Shown here piece by piece: positions 10,621-61,450 of a stretch of 64,000 bases of DNA. This DNA comes from Aldrovandia affinis (Eukaryota; Chordata; Actinopteri; Notacanthiformes; Halosauridae), in contig JAINUG010000020.1 in NCBI GenBank assembly GCA_029706075.1, forward strand, positions 6,663,860 through 6,727,859. Direction: 5' to 3'. Below the pieces are notes generated by a model. The model had not been told where the DNA came from and searched no databases. It was given only the letters and a program-made list of their open reading frames with translations. Each line of letters opens with the position of its first letter. The first letter of the stretch is position 1. Both the position numbers and the translations under genes were made by a program.

Positions 10621-32451
<21,831 letters not shown>

Positions 32452-37716: not shown

Positions 37717-38379
37717 TCAGCGTTTACAGATGGATTCAGCTGCTGGTTCTGGTTCTGGCGGACGGGCCTTACCTGGGGAATTGTCCTGTGAAGACCCTCC
37801 CAGGCTGGGTTTGGCCACCTGGACCGTGGGGAGGACAGAGGCCCCTTCTTCCTCCTCCTCCTCCTCCTCCTCTTCTTCTTCTTCTTCCTCCTCCTCCTCC
37901 TCCTCCTCCGAGCCTGGACCGCCCGTGCTCTGCTTCTCCTCTTCCCCCTGCCCCGCCCCCCTGTTCTCCGGCAAATGGGTCGCCTGCGTCCCAAATCCAT
38001 GCCGGACCTCCTCCTCTGCCCCTTGGTCCTTCAACTCTGCAGTGTGGCCCTTCTGCTCCTCCCCTTTCTCCTTCTCCTCGGCAGCGATGGCTAGTTTGTA
38101 GCTCTCCAGCCACTTCAGCTGCCCGTTCTTGTAGACGTAGCGGCTGTCGCCAAACCAGCGCACCACCTCCGGGCGCGGGAGGCCTGTCTGGGAAATGAGC
38201 TGGTCATACTGCAGGCTGCTCGGCCAATGGGTGCGCGCGAACACCTGCCTGAGCAGGTGCAGCTGCTCCGCTGTCTTCTTCCCGCGCCCGGAGGTGAACG
38301 GCATGGGCGGGGCTGGGGATTTGGGGCTGTCGGACTCACGCTCCGACTGGGCCACAGCCTCGGGTTCGGGCTTGGTCAC
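37717..38379 (-). CDS. zhx3: zhx3 coding exon B
   Basis: VTKPEPEAVAQSERE continues directly from exon A (human NLRVTEANG). Homeodomain 4 is GKKTAEQLHLLRQVFARTHW and onward to NGQLKWLESYK. The tail has 21 Glu encoded by a GAG/GAA microsatellite (37846-37908) and ends AAESICKR. Acceptor CTCTCCCTGCTGAAG. Confidence 0.88.
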   Translation of the reverse strand: MTKPEPEAVAQSERESDSPKSPAPPMPFTSGRGKKTAEQLHLLRQVFARTHWPSSLQYDQLISQTGLPRPEVVRWFGDSRYVYKNGQLKWLESYKLAIAAEEKEKGEEQKGHTAELKDQGAEEEVRHGFGTQATHLPENRGAGQGEEEKQSTGGPGSEEEEEEEEEEEEEEEEEEEEEGASVLPTVQVAKPSLGGSSQDNSPGKARPPEPEPAAESICKR

Positions 38380-41300
38380 CTTCAGCAGGGAGAGCAAAGA
38401 CGGAGCTTTAAAACGTGGACGGCAGTGTGTGCACATTGAGAGAGAGAGACAGAGTACATAAGATTTGAGGATTTATTTTGACTTCAGTCAGTGGAAGTCG
38501 AACTCACAACGGCCGAGTCCTAGCCGTTATTGATAGCAATTCTATGAGGCAGTATAGCGAAGAAAACCTGTAACTAACACAAGCTAACGGCACTCACAAA
38601 GAGAGATCTTTACTTCAATTACTTCTTCAACGGTCCCAGTATGTAGTGTAATTATACCCTAATAAGTTTGTCATGAATTTGACCTGCTGGGGCCTTACAT
38701 TTATTATTAATGGAATGTTGGGTAAATATGGAGGAAATAGTGGCAATATTCATTCATTAAATAAAAAGTGAAATGTCAACATAATGAAATGTGAAATATT
38801 TTATTTATTTCTATAATAGTTCATTAATATTGTCACAGTTTGTCTGTGGCGTAATTAAATAATGAAATCTGTCAACATCGTTCATCAAAGCCAGTGGGCG
38901 GGATCTAACATTAGATTGTTTGAATATTGTAAAGCGCCCGAGACACCCAATTTGGTTTGGATCAGCCGTTTCCAGTTGTCGATGCTCACCGTGTGATCAA
39001 ACCTAGCTAGCCAGCTTAGTGTAGAGAGATCAGTAGTGAAGTACCTGAAAAATCTTTGCTACTTAGTGACAGTATTAGTGTGCAAGCATGTCAGAAAGCT
39101 GCCCCAAACTACTATAGTATGGGGGCGGGGGGTGGTCAGAAGACTGAGACAATGGACACTGACTGACATACAATGATGAGTGAAATTATGTTTTTAATGA
39201 TTAATTAACCAAAAAATAAGCCCGCAGCAACATTTACAATCACTTCCATAAAATCCTCTTCTTGATCTAACACAGTCAGGGGTCACAACATTTGCTTCGA
39301 TTAGGTCCGCTAGTACCACCATTTTCTCCCTCTATGGCATTAAAAGTCTCAAACATTCAGCGCCATATTCAAAACACCTCAGTAGGCAAAAGCAATCAAG
39401 CGAAGTTCAACCACCAATCGAACGTTAGATCCCACCCGCTGGCTTTGATGGATGATGTTGACATATTTAATTATGTCCCATTTCACAGCTCAGACGAAAT
39501 GTGACAATATAAATTAATGAAATATATGAATATATAAATTATGAAATGTGAAAATAAATAAATGTAGAAATAAATAACATGTGGAAATAATTTAAAAAAT
39601 TATTACTTATGTTGACATTTCAATTGGCACATTATTACCAATTTACCCTTTAAAAAAAAAAAAATAATAATTTCAAATCACATTATTATTATACATTTTG
39701 TTTCAGATTTTAACCCATTTTCTCCCAATTTGGTAGCCAATTACACCCGCTATTTTCAAGTCAATCCCCCCCTCGTAATGTGAGTTCGCTGCCGTAGCCT
39801 GGTAGTGACGAAGGTGAAGTATCGTCTCCTCCGAGACGGCACTCACCAGGCAGTCGACCGTAACTCTGTACTACAGAGCCACTCCTGTCGGCTTCCCTCC
39901 CCCCTCCCTGGGCGGACAGCCAATCGCCGCCCCCGGTGGCACTCCCGAACAGTGGGATTGAACCCCGGTCGCTTTGGCCAGCGTCGAATATTGTAAACAC
40001 TAGACCACGCGGGAGGCCTTCAAATCACATTAAAACTAAAATGCAAAAGACAATTTCTGTCTGCAGAAAGTTTATTTACAGTAAAAATGTAGTTCTGGTT
40101 ACCGTGCCAACCTTCAGCATCTTCAGGTTGATCTTGATGGGGTTGACCTTGGGGTTGATCTCCTTGCCGCACTGCTGTGCCGACGGCCCTTGCAAGGGAT
40201 CTTCCTCTTCGCTCTTCCCCCCTCCTCCTCGTCCTCCTCCTCCGCCATCGTCCTCGTCCTCCTCGTCCTCTTCCTCCTGCTCCTCTGGCCCCACCCTGCC
40301 CTTGGTCGCCGCCCTCTTGCGGCGCTCAGAGAACCAGGCGTCAATCTCACGCCGGGTCATCTTGGTGTGGGCACGGAGTCGGTCCACCTCCTCGGTGGAG
40401 GGAAGCGGGTCCTGGCTGTAGCTGGCCTCCAGCGCGCGCACCTGCTGGGGGTCGCGCTCACGATACCGCACGGCCGTGAAGTCTGCCGCTTGCGTCTCCG
40501 CTGGGGCCCGTCGCACCGTAACCACGGACGCCGTCGCCGCGGGTGACCTGGGACTCCCGGACGGGGAGGGGCCATCGGCGAGGTCGAGGGACGCCGCCCC
40601 CGCGCCCCGCGGACCCTTCAGGTTGCGATTGTGGTAGCGGCGGTCACTGAACCACTTGCGCACCTCGCGCACCGTCAGGCCGGTGATCCTGGTGAGCCTC
40701 TCCACCTCCTCCTGTCCAGGGAACTCGCAGCACAGGAAGCTCTGCTTCAGTGCCCCCAGCTGCTCCGCCGACTTCTTGCTCTTGTAGAAGCTGGGGTCCA
40801 GGAAGCTGCTGGGGAGGGTCCGAGAGCTGGGCGCCCCCCTGAGGGTGGGAGGAGCCACCGGGACCGCAGACTCCGCCATCCTGCCACAGCTGTCGCCATT
40901 GGGTTTGCCAGCGCTCCCGTTGCCGGGACTACCGTTGCTGGTGATGTTGCTACAGATGCTGGTCAGGCCGCTGGAGCTGTTGGCGCCATTGCTGCTGACG
41001 AAGGTGTTGCCACCGGCTACAGTGACCCGGCTACTGCTCCCCACGGCCCCCACCACCACGCTGACCCCGCCCTTGTCAACCCCGATGCCAACCCCGCCCT
41101 TATCTGCTCCCACGGCGGCAGCTGGCCGGGCTTGGGCATGCAGCCGCTGTTGTGGCCGGGGGGTCACGGCCAGGGTCACGGGGGCACTGCTCACCTGCAG
41201 CCCGTTGGCCATCACGGGCTGCGTGACAATCACCCCCCCGTGCAGGATGTGCGGCAACCCCCCTGGCAGCACCGTGATGGTGTGCTGGCCCAGGCCGTGG

Positions 41301-42508
41301 GGGGTGTGCCGAACCTGCGCCGAGGGAGGGGGCCGGCCCTGGGGCGCCTGGATGATGGTGTTGAACATCTTACGCCGGGAGTCGTCAATCTCCTCCGGCG
41401 ACCAGCTGATGCCCTGCTTGAGCCGCTGCGCCGTGAACCAGATCTTAATCTGCTCCTCGGGGTACTTGGTGACCACGGTCAGATAGCACAGCTCTGCCTT
41501 GGTGGGGTAGGGGAACTTGCTGAAGGACGTCTTTAGGAAGCTGCTGGAGTCCATGGAGGCATTGTAGGTGGGGATGCTGCTGAGGGGGATCATCACCTTG
41601 GGCAAGTTCTTGGAGGAGGAGGAGGAGGAGGAAGAGGAGGAAGAGGAAGAGCAGGACACTGTGATGGGGGCGGACTGCTGGTGGGGGGTGCGGCTCTGCA
41701 CCACTGTCACCACTTGACTGATGGCGGTCTTGAGCAGCGGCAGGGTGCCTGAGCCGTTCACAATCTGTACGGCAGACGGGAGCAGTGTGGGCGGGGGCAG
41801 TGCTTTGGGGGCAGCCCCGTTGTGCACCATGGCAGGTGCGGTGGTGGGCGGAGGCATGGCAGTTTGTGCAGGGTCCTTCCTGTGCCCAGCAGGTTCCTCA
41901 TCTCCGGGTCCCTGGGGGGCCACGGCGATGCGCTTGTGCTCCTTCCCCTTGAGCGTCTTCATGATGGGCGTCTTGGTGATGGAGATCTCACCAGCCACCA
42001 GACTCTGCTCGACCCGGATCCGCCTCTCCCGTCGCCGCACCTGCAGGGTGGTGCCCATCAGACTTCCCGCTGCGCCCAGGCTGGGGTGTGCCCGAGCGTT
42101 GTGTAGCGCCAGCCCCTCAAACTTGGTGGCAGAGACCCCGCAGTCCATGCAGTAGAAGCTGGGGTCGGTGCGGAAGTCCGGGTGACCGCTGTACACGTGG
42201 TCCAGGAACAGGTTGAGGTCCTGGGACTGGAAGCGGCAAGGCTGGCAGGTGTAGGAGTGGCACCCCGGCTGCGGAATGGCACCCTCATCAGGACAGGAGG
42301 ACTTGGGGCCCAGTCCTCTCCCGGTGGCGGTGGGGGTTGTCTCTTCCTCCTCCTCCTCACCTGCTGCACCCCCGTGGATCGTGTTGTCCTTGGCGCTGGG
42401 GGAAGGTGGCAAGGGGGGGTCTGGGGGGGCGGGGTCCCGCTCCTCAAGGGGCCGGGAGTTTTTTGAGGGGATCATACAGGGGATGGTGGATTTTCTCTTG
42501 CTGGCCAT
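37717..42508 (-). CDS. zhx3: Zinc fingers and homeoboxes 3-like protein, two coding exons
   Basis: Nuclear homeodomain repressor of the ZHX family, which acts as homo- or heterodimers. Joined exons 42508-40112 and 38379-37717 give 3060 nt, 1019 residues (human ZHX3 956). It starts MASKRKSTIPCMIPSK as in ZHX3. Two C2H2 fingers (C88/C91/H104/H109 and C120/C123/H136/H141), the TKTPIMKTLKGK motif, four homeodomains at about 304-363, 571-631, 676-736 and 829-890 (WFTAQR, WFSDRR, WFSERR, WFGDSR). The fifth homeodomain of human ZHX3 is absent; an acidic tail with 21 consecutive Glu replaces it. Mammalian ZHX genes are read from one coding exon; here a 1.7-kb intron splits it. Convergent with top1. 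Assignment to ZHX3 rests on the closest matches remembered; the paralogue suffix is open. Confidence 0.92.
38720..39648. mobile_element. Foldback DNA element in the zhx3 intron
   Basis: Long imperfect inverted arms: 38720-38945 and 39405-39648. They share GGGTAAAT at the tips, GAAATGTCAACATAA, and ATCAAAGCCAGYGGGYGGGAT at the inner end. About 930 bp with no coding capacity. A non-autonomous long-TIR element of unknown superfamily. Confidence 0.8.
39712..40018 (-). mobile_element. tRNA-headed SINE in the zhx3 intron
   Basis: On the - strand it begins GGCCTCCCGCGTGGTCTAGT with a B-box-like GGGGTTCAATCCC. The body has CCGTCTCGGAGGAGACG and it ends GGCTACCAAATTGGGAGAAA. Same family as 30852-31182. 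Confidence 0.85.
40071..40078 (-). terminator. Stop/poly(A) signal just inside the zhx3 intron
   Basis: On the - strand the sequence TAAATAAA gives the stop of the unspliced exon A reading frame (40078-40076) overlapping an AATAAA signal (40076-40071). Read-through without splicing would give an 810-residue protein lacking homeodomain 4. Confidence 0.5.
40112..42508 (-). CDS. zhx3: zhx3 coding exon A
   Basis: 799 codons from ATG at 42508 to KINLKMLK. Encodes both zinc fingers, homeodomains 1-3, a Ser run (about residues 287-299) and an acidic/Gly-rich stretch (about 742-765). The donor used here is GTTGGC after AAG, phase 0, which is weak; a GTAACC donor 9 nt further on would add Val-Gly-Thr. 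Confidence 0.93.
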
Positions 42509-43440: not shown

Positions 43441-44873
43441 TTATTTTTTATACATAGCCCCCACAATTTTAGGGGCTCAAAAAGTAATTGTACAAACTAA
43501 AAATCATAAATTAAATCACCATTTTTGATACTTGGTTGAAAATCCTAGTCAATGACTGTCTGAAGTCTGGAACCCATAGACATCACCAGGCACTAGGTTT
43601 CTTCCCTGGTGATGATCTGCCAGGCCTTTACTGCCTTCAGTTTCTGCTTGTTCTTGGGGCGTTTTGCCTTCAGCAAGTGAAATGCATGCTCAATTGGATT
43701 CAGGTCAGTTGATTGACTTGGCCATTGCAGAACATTCCACTTCTTTGCTTTAAAAAAGTATTGGGTTGCTTTTGCAGTATGCTTCGGGTCATTGTCCATC
43801 TGCACTGTGAAGCGCCGTCCAATGAGTTTTGAAGCATTTGGCTGAATCGGAGCAGATAATATAGCCCTATACACTTCAGAATTCATCCTGCTGCTTTTGT
43901 CAGCAGTCACATCATCAATAAATACAAGGGAACCAGTTCCATTGGAAGCCATACATGCCCACCCCATAACACTACCTCCACCATGCTTCACAGATGAGGT
44001 GGTATGCTTCGGATCATCTTCTCCATACTCTTCTCTTCCCATCATTCTGGTACAAGTTGATCTTTGTCTCATCTGTCCATAGGATGTTGTTCCAGAACTG
44101 TACAGACTTTTTTAGATGTTTTTTGGCAAACTCGAATCTGGTCTTCCTGTTTTTGAGACTTACCAATGGTTTACACCTTGTGGTAAACCCTCTGTATTTA
44201 CTCTGGTGAAGTCTTCTCTTGATTGTTGACTTTGACACAGATACGCCTACCTCCTGGAGGGTGTTCTTGATCTGGCCAACTGTTGTGAAGAGGTTTTTCT
44301 TCACCAGGGAAATAATTATTCGGTCATCCACCACAGTTGTTTTCCGTGGTCTTCCGGGCCTTTTGGTGTTCCTGAGCTCACCAGTGCGTTCTTTCTTTTT
44401 AAGAAAATACCAAATAGTTGATTTGGCCACACCTAATGTTTTTGCTATCTCTCTGATGGGTCTGTTTTGATTTTTCAGCCTAATGATGGCTTGCTTCACT
44501 GGCAGTGACAGCTCTTTGGACTTCATATTGAGAGTTAACAGCAACAGATTCCAAATGCCACACTTGAAATCAACTCTAGACCTTTTATCTGTTTACTTGT
44601 AAATGAAATAATGAGGGAATAACACACACCTGGCTATGGAACACCTGAGCAGCCAATTGTCCAATTACCTTTGGTCCCTTAAAAAGGGGGGACCACATAT
44701 AAAAATTGCTGTAATTCCTACACCGTTCACCCGATGTGAATACCATCAAATTAAAGCTGCAAGTCTGCACTTTGAGCTCATATTCATTATTTAATTTCAA
44801 CTCCAATATGCTGTGGTAGACAGCTAAAATAACAATAACTTTGTCAATGTCCAAATATTTATGGACCTGACTG
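43440..44873 (-). mobile_element. Tc1-like element, one end truncated
   Basis: The right end (44842-44873) matches the fish family ending CCATAAATATTTGGACATTG (read on the - strand) next to TA. At the left only the inner repeat near 43445-43490 is present, so that terminus is lost. Transposase on the - strand. Confidence 0.88.
43593..44544 (-). pseudogene. Tc1 transposase, one frameshift
   Basis: The N-terminal half, from MLLTLNMKSKELSLPVKQAI, has helix-turn-helix motifs, GRPRKTT and WTDETKINLYQNDGK. A frame change near 44030 leads into DPKHTTSSVKHGGGSV, VQMDNDPKHTAKA and STDLNPIEHAF. All three catalytic acids are present (D, D, E) but in two frames. Ends at NKQKLKAVKAWQIITREET. Confidence 0.9.
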
Positions 44874-47039: not shown

Positions 47040-48212
47040 CACCAATCAGCCACAACATTAAACCACCTGCCTAATATTGTGTAGATCCCCCTCGTGCCAC
47101 CAAAACAGCTCTGACCCGTCGAGGCATGGATTCCACAAGACCTCTGAAGGTGTCCGTGGTATCTGGCACCAAGACGTTAGCAGCAGATCCTTTAAGTCTT
47201 GTAAGTTGCGAGGTGATGCCTCCATGGATCGAACTTGTTGGTCCAGCACATCCCACAGATGCTCGATCGGATTGAGATCTGGGGAATTTGGAGGCTAAGT
47301 CAACACCTTGAACTCTTTGTCATGTTCCTCAAACCATTCCAATTTTTGCAGTGTGGCAGGGCGCATTATCCTGCTGAAAGAGGCCACTGCCATCAGGGAA
47401 TACCGTTGCCATGAAGGGGTGTACTTGGTCTGCAACAATGTTTAGGTAGGTGGTACGTGTCAAAGTAACATCCACATGAATGCCAGGACCCAAGGTTTCC
47501 CAGCAGAACATTGCACAGAGCATCACACTGCCTCCGCCGGCTTGCCTTCTTCCCATAGTGCATCCTGGTGCCACCTCTTCCCCAGGTAAACGACACACAC
47601 GCACCCGGCCATCCATATGATGTAAAAGAAAACGTGATTCATCAGACCAGCCCACCTTCTTCCATTGCTCCATGGTCCAGTTCTGACGCTCACGTGCCCA
47701 TTGTAGGCGCTTTTGGCGGTGGACAGGGGTCAGCATGGGCACTCTGACCGGTCTGCGGCTACACAGACCCATACAAAGCAAGCTGCAATGCACTGTGTGT
47801 TCTGACACCTTTCTATCATAGCCAGCATTAACTTTTTCAGCAATTTGTGCTACAGTAGCTCTTCTGTGGGATCGGACCAGACGGGCTAGCCTTCGCTCCC
47901 CACGCGCATCAATAAGCCAATGAGCCCATGACCCTGTCAACGGTTCACCGGTTGTCCTTCCTTGAACCACTTTTGGTAGGTACCAACTACTGCATACCGG
48001 GAACACCCCACAAGACCTGCCGTTTTCAAGATGCTCTGACCCAGTCGTCTAGCCATCACAATTTGGCCCATGTCAAAGTCGCTCAGATATTTACGCTTGC
48101 CAATTTTTCCTGCTTCCAACACATCAACTTCAAGAACTGACTGTTCATCAATGAGATGATCAATGTTATTCAATTCACCCGTCAGTGGTTTTAATGTTAT
48201 GGCTGATCGGTG
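47040..48212 (-). mobile_element. Tc1/mariner element abutting the previous one
   Basis: Ends CACCAATCAGCCACAACATT and complement (TTAATGTTATGGCTGATCGG), 1173 bp, flanked by TA. Only a TATATA spacer separates it from the element ending at 47033. Transposase on the - strand, nearly complete. Confidence 0.92.
47071..48130 (-). pseudogene. Tc1/mariner-type transposase, frame-shifted
   Basis: The N-terminal part (about 48130-47937) has [20 protein letters not shown], a helix-turn-helix. The middle frame (48006-47329) has WARERQNWTMEQWKKVGWSD with the first Asp and GLFQQDNAPCHTAK with the second. The last part, in another frame, ends PRRVRAVLVARGGSTQY. At least two frame changes (near 47950 and 47335). 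The acidic triad region is otherwise recognisable. Confidence 0.88.
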
Positions 48213-58459: not shown

Positions 58460-59648
58460 ACACCAGGACCGAGAACCATTCTCTTATGGTAAGGAAGTAA
58501 AGAGGAAAAGGAATAACAGAGCGGACCATCTGGTTGCTGTAGAGCATCTGTGGTTACAGATTGCACATCCAGCCCAAGTAAGTTCATTCATGCTTTCCGT
58601 GTAGAGGAGTGTCACCCCTACCCTCATGTTACTGCAGCAAACAATAACACAGAGGCCGTGGCCATGGCAACTACTTCATTCGATTTTGAAATGCCCACTT
58701 CCAGCTAAAAGGGGCTGGGCCCAGGCCTTCTGAACAGAGGGAATTGTGGGAAACTGGGGTGTGGGGTAAACTGTGTCTGCACCAAAACATGGGGGAGGTC
58801 AGGGCAGATTTTCTTTCACGCACACTCACTCACTTTCTCACACTCACACTATCAAACACTCTGATACAGGATTTAAATGTGAAAAAGTGGCATAAGGCGG
58901 GGGGTATGCACAATGTCTGATGATGAAACAGAAACAAAAAACACGCCTAGTCCCTGGTGCAGTAACCTGAGGTCTGTCAGATGTGTCCATTAAGGAGGAT
59001 CAGCACTACCCTTTTTTGTGCTTTTTCTGCACGTTAGCAGAGACTTTTAACGCACACCGCTTTCCCATTGATAGGAGAAACTGGACACACCGCGCGTCAT
59101 TTGACATGATACGTTTCCTGTAGGCCCGACGACCCTCACATCTGTGTGCCGTGTCCCACAAGGCGTATGCCCAGAGAGCTTACCTTCGTTAAGACCATTT
59201 CTCATTAGCCAACACAGCCGGCCTTTGAAGTAAATCATGTCCTGTCCTGCCCGCCTATCCGTCTGTCCATCTGTCTGTGACCTTAGTGTCTGTGTGTAGG
59301 AGTGTTCATGCATGCGTTTTGTAAGCATGCGCATGTGTGTTTTCTGCATGTGTGATTGTGTGTATGTACATGTGTTGGGTTTATGTTTATGTATGTAGCT
59401 GTATATGAACAAAAGATCAAATTAAATATACCTCATTACTTATAGTTTATGCTAAAAAAATGCAGAAAATTCCAAACCTACAATACTAATACAAAAACAT
59501 TTTGTTTTATTAATATTTTGTTTCCCAGAAAACATCTGGATCACAATTATTCACACATCTAACTATTCTTTTAAATGTAATGCAACAAAAACAAATCTTC
59601 ATAAATATACAACTTATTTGAAGTTCATTCGAAGGTTATGAAACTATA
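58460..59648. other. Non-coding stretch
   Basis: No gene or clear repeat recognised, apart from short GT-rich sequence at about 59280-59400 and AT-rich sequence near 59440-59640 that may belong to the left part of the following Tc1 element. Confidence 0.5.
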
Positions 59649-59734
59649 CAGTGGCCTACAATAGTTTCCTGTTTCCCTCTGGTATAAAAAGGAGGGAACA
59701 CACGTTTGAAATACTGTGGTCAGCCACCATCATG

Positions 59735-61450
59735 ATGAAAGGCGAAGAACTCCCTGAAAGCATCAGACAAAAGGTTATTGACCTCTACAGATCAGGAGAT
59801 GGCTACAAAAACATAACTAAAATGTTAAAGATGCCGCTTTCCACTGTTGTGTCAATTATTAGGAAGTTTAAGGCCACTGGAACAGTGGCTAACCTGCCAG
59901 GTAGAGGACGCAAGTCCATCTTGGCCCCACGTGTAGTGAGATGGATGGTTCGAGGCAAAAATAAGTCCAAGGGGCACAGTTCAGATCTCCAAAACAACCT
60001 GGCATCTTGGGGTTTCAAGGTGTATAAAGCTACCATCCGACGACGCCTACATGACCATGGCCTTTACGGCAGAGTTGCAAGAAGGAAGCCTCTTTTGAAG
60101 ACAATTCACTGAAAAAGGCGTCTTGAATTCACCAAACTACATCTGAACTACAAATAGAACCGTATCTTGTGGTCTTTTCGGACATGCACATCAGCGTTAT
60201 GTTTGGTGTTCAAAGAATGCAAGTATTGTTGAAAAGAACCTCATGCCTACAGTGAAATTGGTGGTAGATCTTTAATGCTTTGGGGTTGTTTTGCATCCAC
60301 ATGCCCTGCGGCCCTTATTAAAATAGAGGAAACCATGTACCAAGACATTTTGTCCAAAAACCTTCCCTCCGCCAGGAAGCTACACCTTGTCCGCAGATGG
60401 ACCTTCCAACAAGACAACAATCCCAAACATACACTACTGGTCAAAAGTTTTATAACACCCCCATTTTCCCGTTTTTACTGAAATTTAAGCAGTTCAAGTC
60501 CAGTGAATAACCAGAAATGGTAGAAATGCTTTTAAAAAAAAGTTTGCAAGTCGCCAACTCTGGATCCATCAAAAGAGCCCCAGACCATCATGCTTCCTCC
60601 TCCATGTTTAACAGTTGGTGTCACACACTGAGGAACCATCCTTTCACCTACTCAGTGTACAAAAACCTTTCAAGATTTCAAAATTTGATTCATCGGTCCA
60701 TAAGACCTTCTTCCAGTCTTCAGTAGTCCACTGGCAGTGCTTCATGGCCCAGGCAAGCCTCTTTTTCTTATTTCGCCATCTTAGCAATGGCTTTCTTACT
60801 GCCACTTGACCTGTCAAACCTGGAGCTCGAAGTCTTCTCTTCACAGTTGAAACCGAATCTTCCTTACTTTGACCTGTGTTAAGCTTGAAGCTGTTGTCCT
60901 GTGAGCCGCCTATCACACAAGCTGTTGACTCTCAGAAACTTGTCTTCTAATTTTGCTGTGGCTTTGGGTCTGCCAGACCTCTTCCTGTCAGTTTCCAAGT
61001 GCCTTTTGATGGTGTAGGAAAGTTCAATTAAGTTCATTTTGTCTTCTTATTTCAAATAAATGTTTTACTTTCTTTTGATCACTGCCAAAAACTGTATTCT
61101 TTTTCAGTTTTTGGTAACCTAAACTTTTTTTAATTTTTTTTTAATAAAACCTCTGGCTGTTTACCACTTACCTTAGTACAATTTCAGGTTACTCACTGGA
61201 CTTAAATTTCAATAAAAACTGGAAAATGGGGGTGTTCTAAATCTTTTGACCGGTAGTGTAAGTACAAAGCAACTAAGAAATGGTTGACAGAGCACAAGAT
61301 CAATGTCCTGACGTGGCCAGCTCAGTCTCCAGACCTGAATCCAATTGAACATTGTGGTTTGAACTCAAAAAAGCAGTCCAGAAATGTCAACCCAAGAATC
61401 TGAAGGAACTAGAACAATTCTACATCGAGGATTGGTTGAGGACAACATTT
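59735..61450 (+). pseudogene. Tc1 transposase, several stops and an insertion
   Basis: MKGEELPESIRQKVIDLYRS with helix-turn-helix motifs, GRGRKS and the SSDLQNNLASWGFKV block is open to 60111. Stops follow in the region that should carry the first catalytic Asp, then LMLWGCFASTCPAALIK and FQQDNNPKHT to about 60430. It resumes after the inserted element at about 61262 (ATKKWLTEHKINVLTWPAQS) and loses frame after DLNPIEH. Non-functional. Confidence 0.85.
60432..61258 (-). mobile_element. Deleted Tc1 copy nested in the Tc1 above
   Basis: Ends CACTACTGGTCAAAAGTTTT and complement (CTTTTGACCGGTAGTG), TA both sides, 827 bp. The - strand remnant reads VKRRLRAPGLTGQVAVRKPL and VLWTDESNFEILKGF. Same family as 46199, 52628 and 54255. 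Confidence 0.88.

Follow-up and report, generated by a model that had tools for sequence, protein, structure and literature searches.

The interrupted zhx3 gene and its uninterrupted counterpart

The stretch of DNA analysed here (hereafter the window) comprises 64,000 nucleotides from Aldrovandia affinis and carries on its minus strand a gene, which we take to be zhx3, whose reading frame is open from the ATG at 42508 to 40112, is broken by 1,732 bases at LK|VT and resumes at 38379, just as an initial annotation of this sequence had claimed. Mammalian ZHX genes have a single coding exon, and human ZHX3 presumably reads NLR-VTEANG at the corresponding site; a literature search on ZHX gene structure retrieved no paper. 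Retention of the insert brings in a stop after 11 codons and yields an 810-aa product, and joining 40112 to 38379 yields an open zhx3 protein of 1,004 aa that reads ...INLKMLKVTKPE... across the junction. The coding features are as follows:

40112..42508, minus strand: zhx3 exon A, coding, 799 codons from ATG, ending ...NLKMLK
38380..40111, minus strand: predicted zhx3 intron, 1,732 nt, phase 0
37773..38379, minus strand: zhx3 exon B, starting VTKPE... and containing a homeodomain
donor at 37772, next exon from 37426, minus strand: further GT-AG intron after exon B

The exon B product matches the solved homeodomains of ZHX1 (3nar, E 7.5e-22) and HOMEZ (2ecc, E 2.2e-16), and the assignment to the gene family is therefore sound.

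When exons A and B were used as queries against the window's own 1.22-Gb genome, a second zhx3-like gene was recovered on contig C1867 (L034, G000:C1867:2732693-2735651), in which AACCTGAAGATGCTGAAGGTGACC is continuous at the site of the insert; this homologue thus provides an empty site, lying within one stop-to-stop frame of 833 codons that reads PIKINLKMLKVTESNGK. The copy carries two frame changes in its 5' half, attributable either to sequence or assembly errors or to a decaying gene, both of them upstream of the site, which is itself intact. The genome also holds, by eye, two homez-like genes and four zhx1/zhx2-like genes, and the latter four cross the corresponding region in single frames, the exact position not being alignable there. 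The two zhx3 copies are separated by a synonymous distance of 0.86-1.56 (NG86, three stretches), so that their duplication is old and may be that of the teleost genome; for the exon B homeodomain, comparison with the C1867 copy gives a dN of 0.21 and a dS of 1.56. As a separate observation made by eye, the zhx3 copy seems to lack, at 37773-38101, the fifth homeodomain that the C1867 copy retains, and the same region holds a glutamate-rich stretch whose longest run is 21.

Termini, target copies and nested elements at the insert

The features in and around the insert are as follows:

40110..40119, minus strand: upstream copy of the apparent 10-bp repeat TGCTGAAGGT
38378..38387, minus strand: downstream copy of the same 10-bp repeat
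40111..40117, minus strand: probable target-site duplication CTGAAGG, upstream copy
38379..38385, minus strand: probable target-site duplication CTGAAGG, downstream copy
38386..40110, minus strand: putative intron-making transposon, 1,725 bases including later nested insertions, starting TTGGCACGGTAACC and ending CTCTCCCTG
38386..38678, minus strand: recognisable 3' part of the transposon, with family matches
38727..39650, minus strand: later foldback element with inverted arms, upstream end approximate
39672..40032, minus strand: later SINE with 14-bp target copies of its own, which read TTCAAATCACATTA on the plus strand and lie at 39672-39685 and 40019-40032

That the same 10 bases stand at both edges, as originally annotated, is borne out: TGCTGAAGGT occurs on the minus strand at 40119-40110 and 38387-38378, two matches where a mean of 0.31 is expected and where 2 of 100 shuffles gave at least two, and the whole window contains no third match. 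Direct repeats are reported near the borders of all 213 introns examined in one survey, most of them imperfect (PMC11782384); a short repeat by itself thus proves little, and it is the transposon termini that carry the argument.

The insert had been described as largely a foldback element and a SINE. Both are indeed present, and the genome holds many copies of each (of the SINE matching 40026-39682, of the foldback matching 39625-38727), but as read from the sequence they are younger insertions nested inside an older transposon that this description had missed and whose two termini are the two edges of the intron. The foldback has AT-rich inverted arms, its termini being taken from other copies, which end ...TTGGCACATTATTTCCTCCATA. 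Without these two elements the insert comes down to approximately 110 bases on the left and 340 on the right. No tRNA gene was detected in the insert by ARAGORN with the bacterial code. Two side observations concern the repeats of the region, namely that the foldback family is present at 19 of the 19 other loci fetched for 38727-39650, and that broken frames resembling Tc1/mariner transposases can be seen by eye in the window at 20128-21243, 21950-22842, 28992-30234, 43593-44592, 47329-48048 and 59642-60112.

A genome search with the right piece gave 7 non-self matches and showed it to be part of an interspersed family; near 38631 it lacks about 76 bases relative to copy L065. Its 3' terminus, CCCTA, is sharp: seven copies end ...TAAA(A/G)(A/C)T(C/T)(A/C)AT...(C/G)CC(C/T)A, stopping at CCCTA or at one-letter variants of it (CCCCA, GCCTA), and their flanks beyond this point differ. 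In one family search the terminus lies at query 121 and all 6 non-self matches stop between 111 and 125; in another, 6 of 14 non-self matches reach the terminus (at 114), ending at 114-124. The last 300 or so bases of the insert match the family up to this terminus, which in the window reads CCCTG at 38386; the insert ends ...TTTTAAAGCTCCGTCTTTGCTCTCCCTG, and there the gene resumes.

The left part by itself (92 bases) found no second match in a genome search, its link to the family coming from direct comparison. The 5' terminus of the family, TAGGCAGGGTAACC, is likewise sharp, since the 7 non-self matches that extend over this part of the family all begin at query 47-62; eight other copies, two of which share common flanks (L077, L082), read T(A/G/T)GGCAGGGTAA(C/T), as does a ninth (C1934). 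The insert begins TTGGCACGGTAACCAGA at 40110, and its start, TTGGCACGGTAACC, matches the terminus at 12 of 14 bases; of 127,972 window positions, 2 show this degree of identity, and 40110 itself is one of the two. Moreover, the first 91 transposon bases score 22.5 against copy L062, the maximum in 500 shuffles being 20. The 5' end had at first been placed inside L064 and L065, but the family extends further. Since both termini are matched, and both ends are found together at two other loci, the edges of the insert are taken to be the ends of a single transposon. Counting against this assignment are the last base of the window copy, G where the family has A, and a K2P distance above that of 12 other copies.

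The initial annotation had taken all 10 bases as duplicated. Other copies of the transposon lead us to regard only 7 of them, CTGAAGG, as the probable target duplication; of the remaining bases, the transposon ends in TG (TA in the family) and the gene has TG at the corresponding place, just as the first T of the transposon has its equal in a T of the gene, and these three extra bases are probably transposon bases that match the gene by chance. The target copies agree at 7 of 7 bases at zhx3. Both ends were sought at 18 other loci and imperfect target copies were found at two, CTATACA/CCATACA (6/7) and CTCTAAT/CTCTTAA (5/7); at the other 16 one end is lost, uncovered or unrecognised. More particularly, target copies were sought and not found in L061-L067 and in four upstream pieces (C1795, C236, C2433, C1557), and the second terminus is absent from the up- or downstream pieces of C236, C2389, C2000, C1591, C2311 and one C2122 copy. 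Across nine 5' target sites, among them that of the window but not that of L077, which duplicates the site of L082, the commonest letters are C T... A G (6, 6, 6 and 5 of 9 at positions 1, 2, 6 and 7), a symmetric motif that fits a target of 7 bp.

Members of the hAT superfamily make 8-bp target duplications and have short inverted termini of the YARNG type. Read as inverted repeats, the 3' end of the present family gives TAGGG and the 5' end TAGGC; by eye, 8 of the first 12 bases of the two termini agree, and the score of the window's 5' start against the inverted 3' end is attained at 0.22% of positions. A target of 7 bp is the best fit at three loci, an 8-bp copy being possible if the terminal A belongs to the target. 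An 8-bp hAT target copy (GCTGAAGG) had been considered and was dropped for 7 bp once the other copies with both ends were read, and with it fell CCCTA+G as the first acceptor. For comparison, target sizes are given as about 8 bp for hAT and P and as 6-7 bp for Dada in the part of the source used here (PMC3706591). The element itself would be non-autonomous.

Some of the copies appear to have spread along with their surroundings. Three lie on contig C2122 (G000:C2122, near 3352860-3353537, 3375471 and 3424441-3425357), and those of their flanks that were read agree in pairs, so that local segmental duplication of one insertion is likely; two further copies on C469 (G000:C469, near 849600 and 904300; L063 and L067), some 55 kb apart and with long further similarity, are another local duplication.

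The edges bear on two other ways in which the intron could have been made. The initial annotation had offered tandem duplication of an AGGT-bearing exon segment as one option, mobile elements filling the intron later, and AGGT is present in both edge repeats; however, the ends of the intron do not resemble the exons. When its first 92 bases are compared with the beginning of exon B, 213 of 500 shuffles do as well; the comparison of its last 340 bases with the end of exon A brings up a single 11-base match, which is unrelated and away from the expected place (19 of 500 shuffles as good). With transposon termini at both edges instead, we give this option next to no credence; a literature search on AGGT tandem duplication found no paper. 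The second possibility, that double-strand-break repair put in filler DNA and left short direct repeats, is highly improbable. Gained introns have reportedly been found in Daphnia (PMC4202315), and a short perfect direct repeat around an insert may also be a product of repair, but with random filler the two ends would not fall precisely on the termini of a single repeat family.

Splicing, exon B and age

The origin that we consider very probable is that a non-autonomous cut-and-paste DNA transposon entered a zhx3 exon and, with its target duplication, made an intron that would be spliced out exactly. Insertion with target duplication was the other option of the initial annotation, and it is this one that is strongly supported by the empty site, the transposon termini at both edges, the target duplication and the open joined frame, all as legible in the DNA. 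A transposon with the ends TAGGCAGGGTAACC...CCCTA would have entered the coding exon at ...GATG-CTGAAGG-TGACC and duplicated the 7 bp CTGAAGG. With AGG at the end of the duplicated target and T as the first base of the transposon, the upstream junction would become a donor, AAG|GT; with CTGAAG|G in the second target copy, preceded by the pyrimidine-rich 3' end of the transposon, the downstream junction would become an acceptor. Splicing at both junctions would then remove the whole transposon together with one target copy, thereby restoring the original codons and message exactly and leaving the protein unchanged. The SINE and the foldback would have entered the transposon afterwards and lengthened the intron. 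The predicted splice sites are:

40110..40111, minus strand: predicted donor GT, AAG|GTTGGC, weak
40101..40102, minus strand: alternative in-frame donor within the transposon, ACG|GTAACC, which would add V-G-T
38380..38381, minus strand: predicted acceptor AG, inside the downstream target copy

It had been proposed that both splice sites derive from duplicated sequence. This holds for the acceptor AG, which lies in a target copy and is preceded by 14 pyrimidines in 16 bases, mostly from the transposon's end, but for only half of the donor, whose G closes the target copy and whose T opens the transposon. By matrix scoring, the junction donor reaches 0.41, a value attained by 9% of the 8,017 GT sites in the window, against 1.31 for the in-frame donor 9 nt downstream, and the real donor is therefore unsure; we infer use of the junction donor rather than of the downstream site. 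By the same matrix, a junction with the family's usual start TAGGC, AAG|GTAGGC, would be a good donor with a score of 4.70 (attained by 0.7% of the 8,017 GT sites), and the junction donor presumably weakened after the insertion.

That the insert is spliced out, and that exon B is still in use, is suggested by exon B being open and constrained. The weak donor, and the complete 810-aa frame obtained on retention, would suit a gene that ends after LKVGTVTRTTFLL with its insert unspliced, exon B being a relic or a separate transcript. In neutral simulations without indels, the 202 codons of exon B remained open in 630, 216, 42 and 3 of 2000 runs at 0.05, 0.1, 0.2 and 0.35 substitutions per site, respectively. 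The first of these figures means that openness says little if the insertion is young, and to this extent favours an unspliced insert; the other three speak against it, as the insertion does not look young and 202 codons would rarely stay open for long without selection. The constraint on the exon B homeodomain argues in the same direction, though it is measured over the whole time since the gene duplication. All in all, we regard an unspliced insert as very unlikely.

The window copy lies at a K2P distance of 0.35 from the family consensus, compared with 0.09-0.20 for 12 other copies (229 sites in the window copy, with an alignment that is partly uncertain, and searches that favour well-kept copies), and the insertion therefore looks old. 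It is presumably younger than the zhx3 gene duplication. Such an age, set against a synonymous distance of 0.86-1.56 between the gene copies, leaves room for an intron that is older still, which the other zhx3 copy and the mammalian genes would have lost and into which a transposon later landed. Against this stand the transposon and its target copies, which adjoin the exons with no leftover intron sequence, and the uninterrupted passage of the four zhx1- and zhx2-like genes through the corresponding region; we consider it extremely improbable.

Known systems and significance

Intron gain in vertebrates has been called very rare and its mechanism largely unknown (PMC2746811, PMC3151243), and the comparisons that follow hold for the parts of the sources cited. 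The closest case to the insertion of the transposon into zhx3 is intron 3 of notothenioid slc26a2 (NTE-1), which arose when a transposon-like element bearing inverted termini entered an exon (PMC12357937). Both involve a fish gene, an exonic insertion and a second element that later lengthened the intron, and the gt-ag of slc26a2 lies in the direct and inverted repeats much as the predicted splice signals of zhx3 fall in the target copies and at the transposon end; NTE-1, however, has a 4-nt direct repeat and tgt...aca termini, whereas zhx3 has a target copy of probably 7 bp and TAGG...CCCTA termini, and the empty site of zhx3 is a second gene copy in the same genome. Introners, too, are inserted transposons, and one splice site or both may come from the duplicated target or its vicinity, but they form families of many introns (PMC9860276), whereas one intron is known here. 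Melanocortin (MC) receptors and other GPCRs of ray-finned fish resemble zhx3 in having gained introns in otherwise intronless genes, several of them with repeats, although in the portion of that work cited no causal element is named and genome compaction and repair are argued for (PMC3151243).

A further parallel is offered by maize, in which an exonic Ds or Ds1 is removed from the message in the manner of an intron (PMC3260210, PMC5432752), a subject that Dennis 1988 and Wessler 1991 reportedly treat. Like the zhx3 element, these are short non-autonomous DNA transposons beginning with TAG, exonic and spliced from the message (as predicted for zhx3); they differ in being plant mutant alleles with 8-bp target copies, Ds1 having its own donors and acceptors, whereas the zhx3 intron is part of a genome assembly and is old. 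Transposon-made introns are already known in fish, maize and algae, and zhx3 adds a case of unusually complete anatomy, in which the empty site, both transposon ends, the target duplication and the predicted splice sites are all legible.

These findings also suggest a rule that can be searched for genome-wide, namely an AGG target joined to a transposon whose first base is T, ...AGG|TAGGCAGGGTAAC. It is unlikely, in our estimation, that the family is built so that AGG-ending 7-bp targets in exons become exact introns and that, much like an introner, it has seeded several of them in this lineage; were this so, the first T of the element would complete AG|GT and its 3' end would supply the pyrimidine tract. 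In either case, the zhx3 intron illustrates a route by which a transposon may enter a coding exon and leave the protein unchanged.
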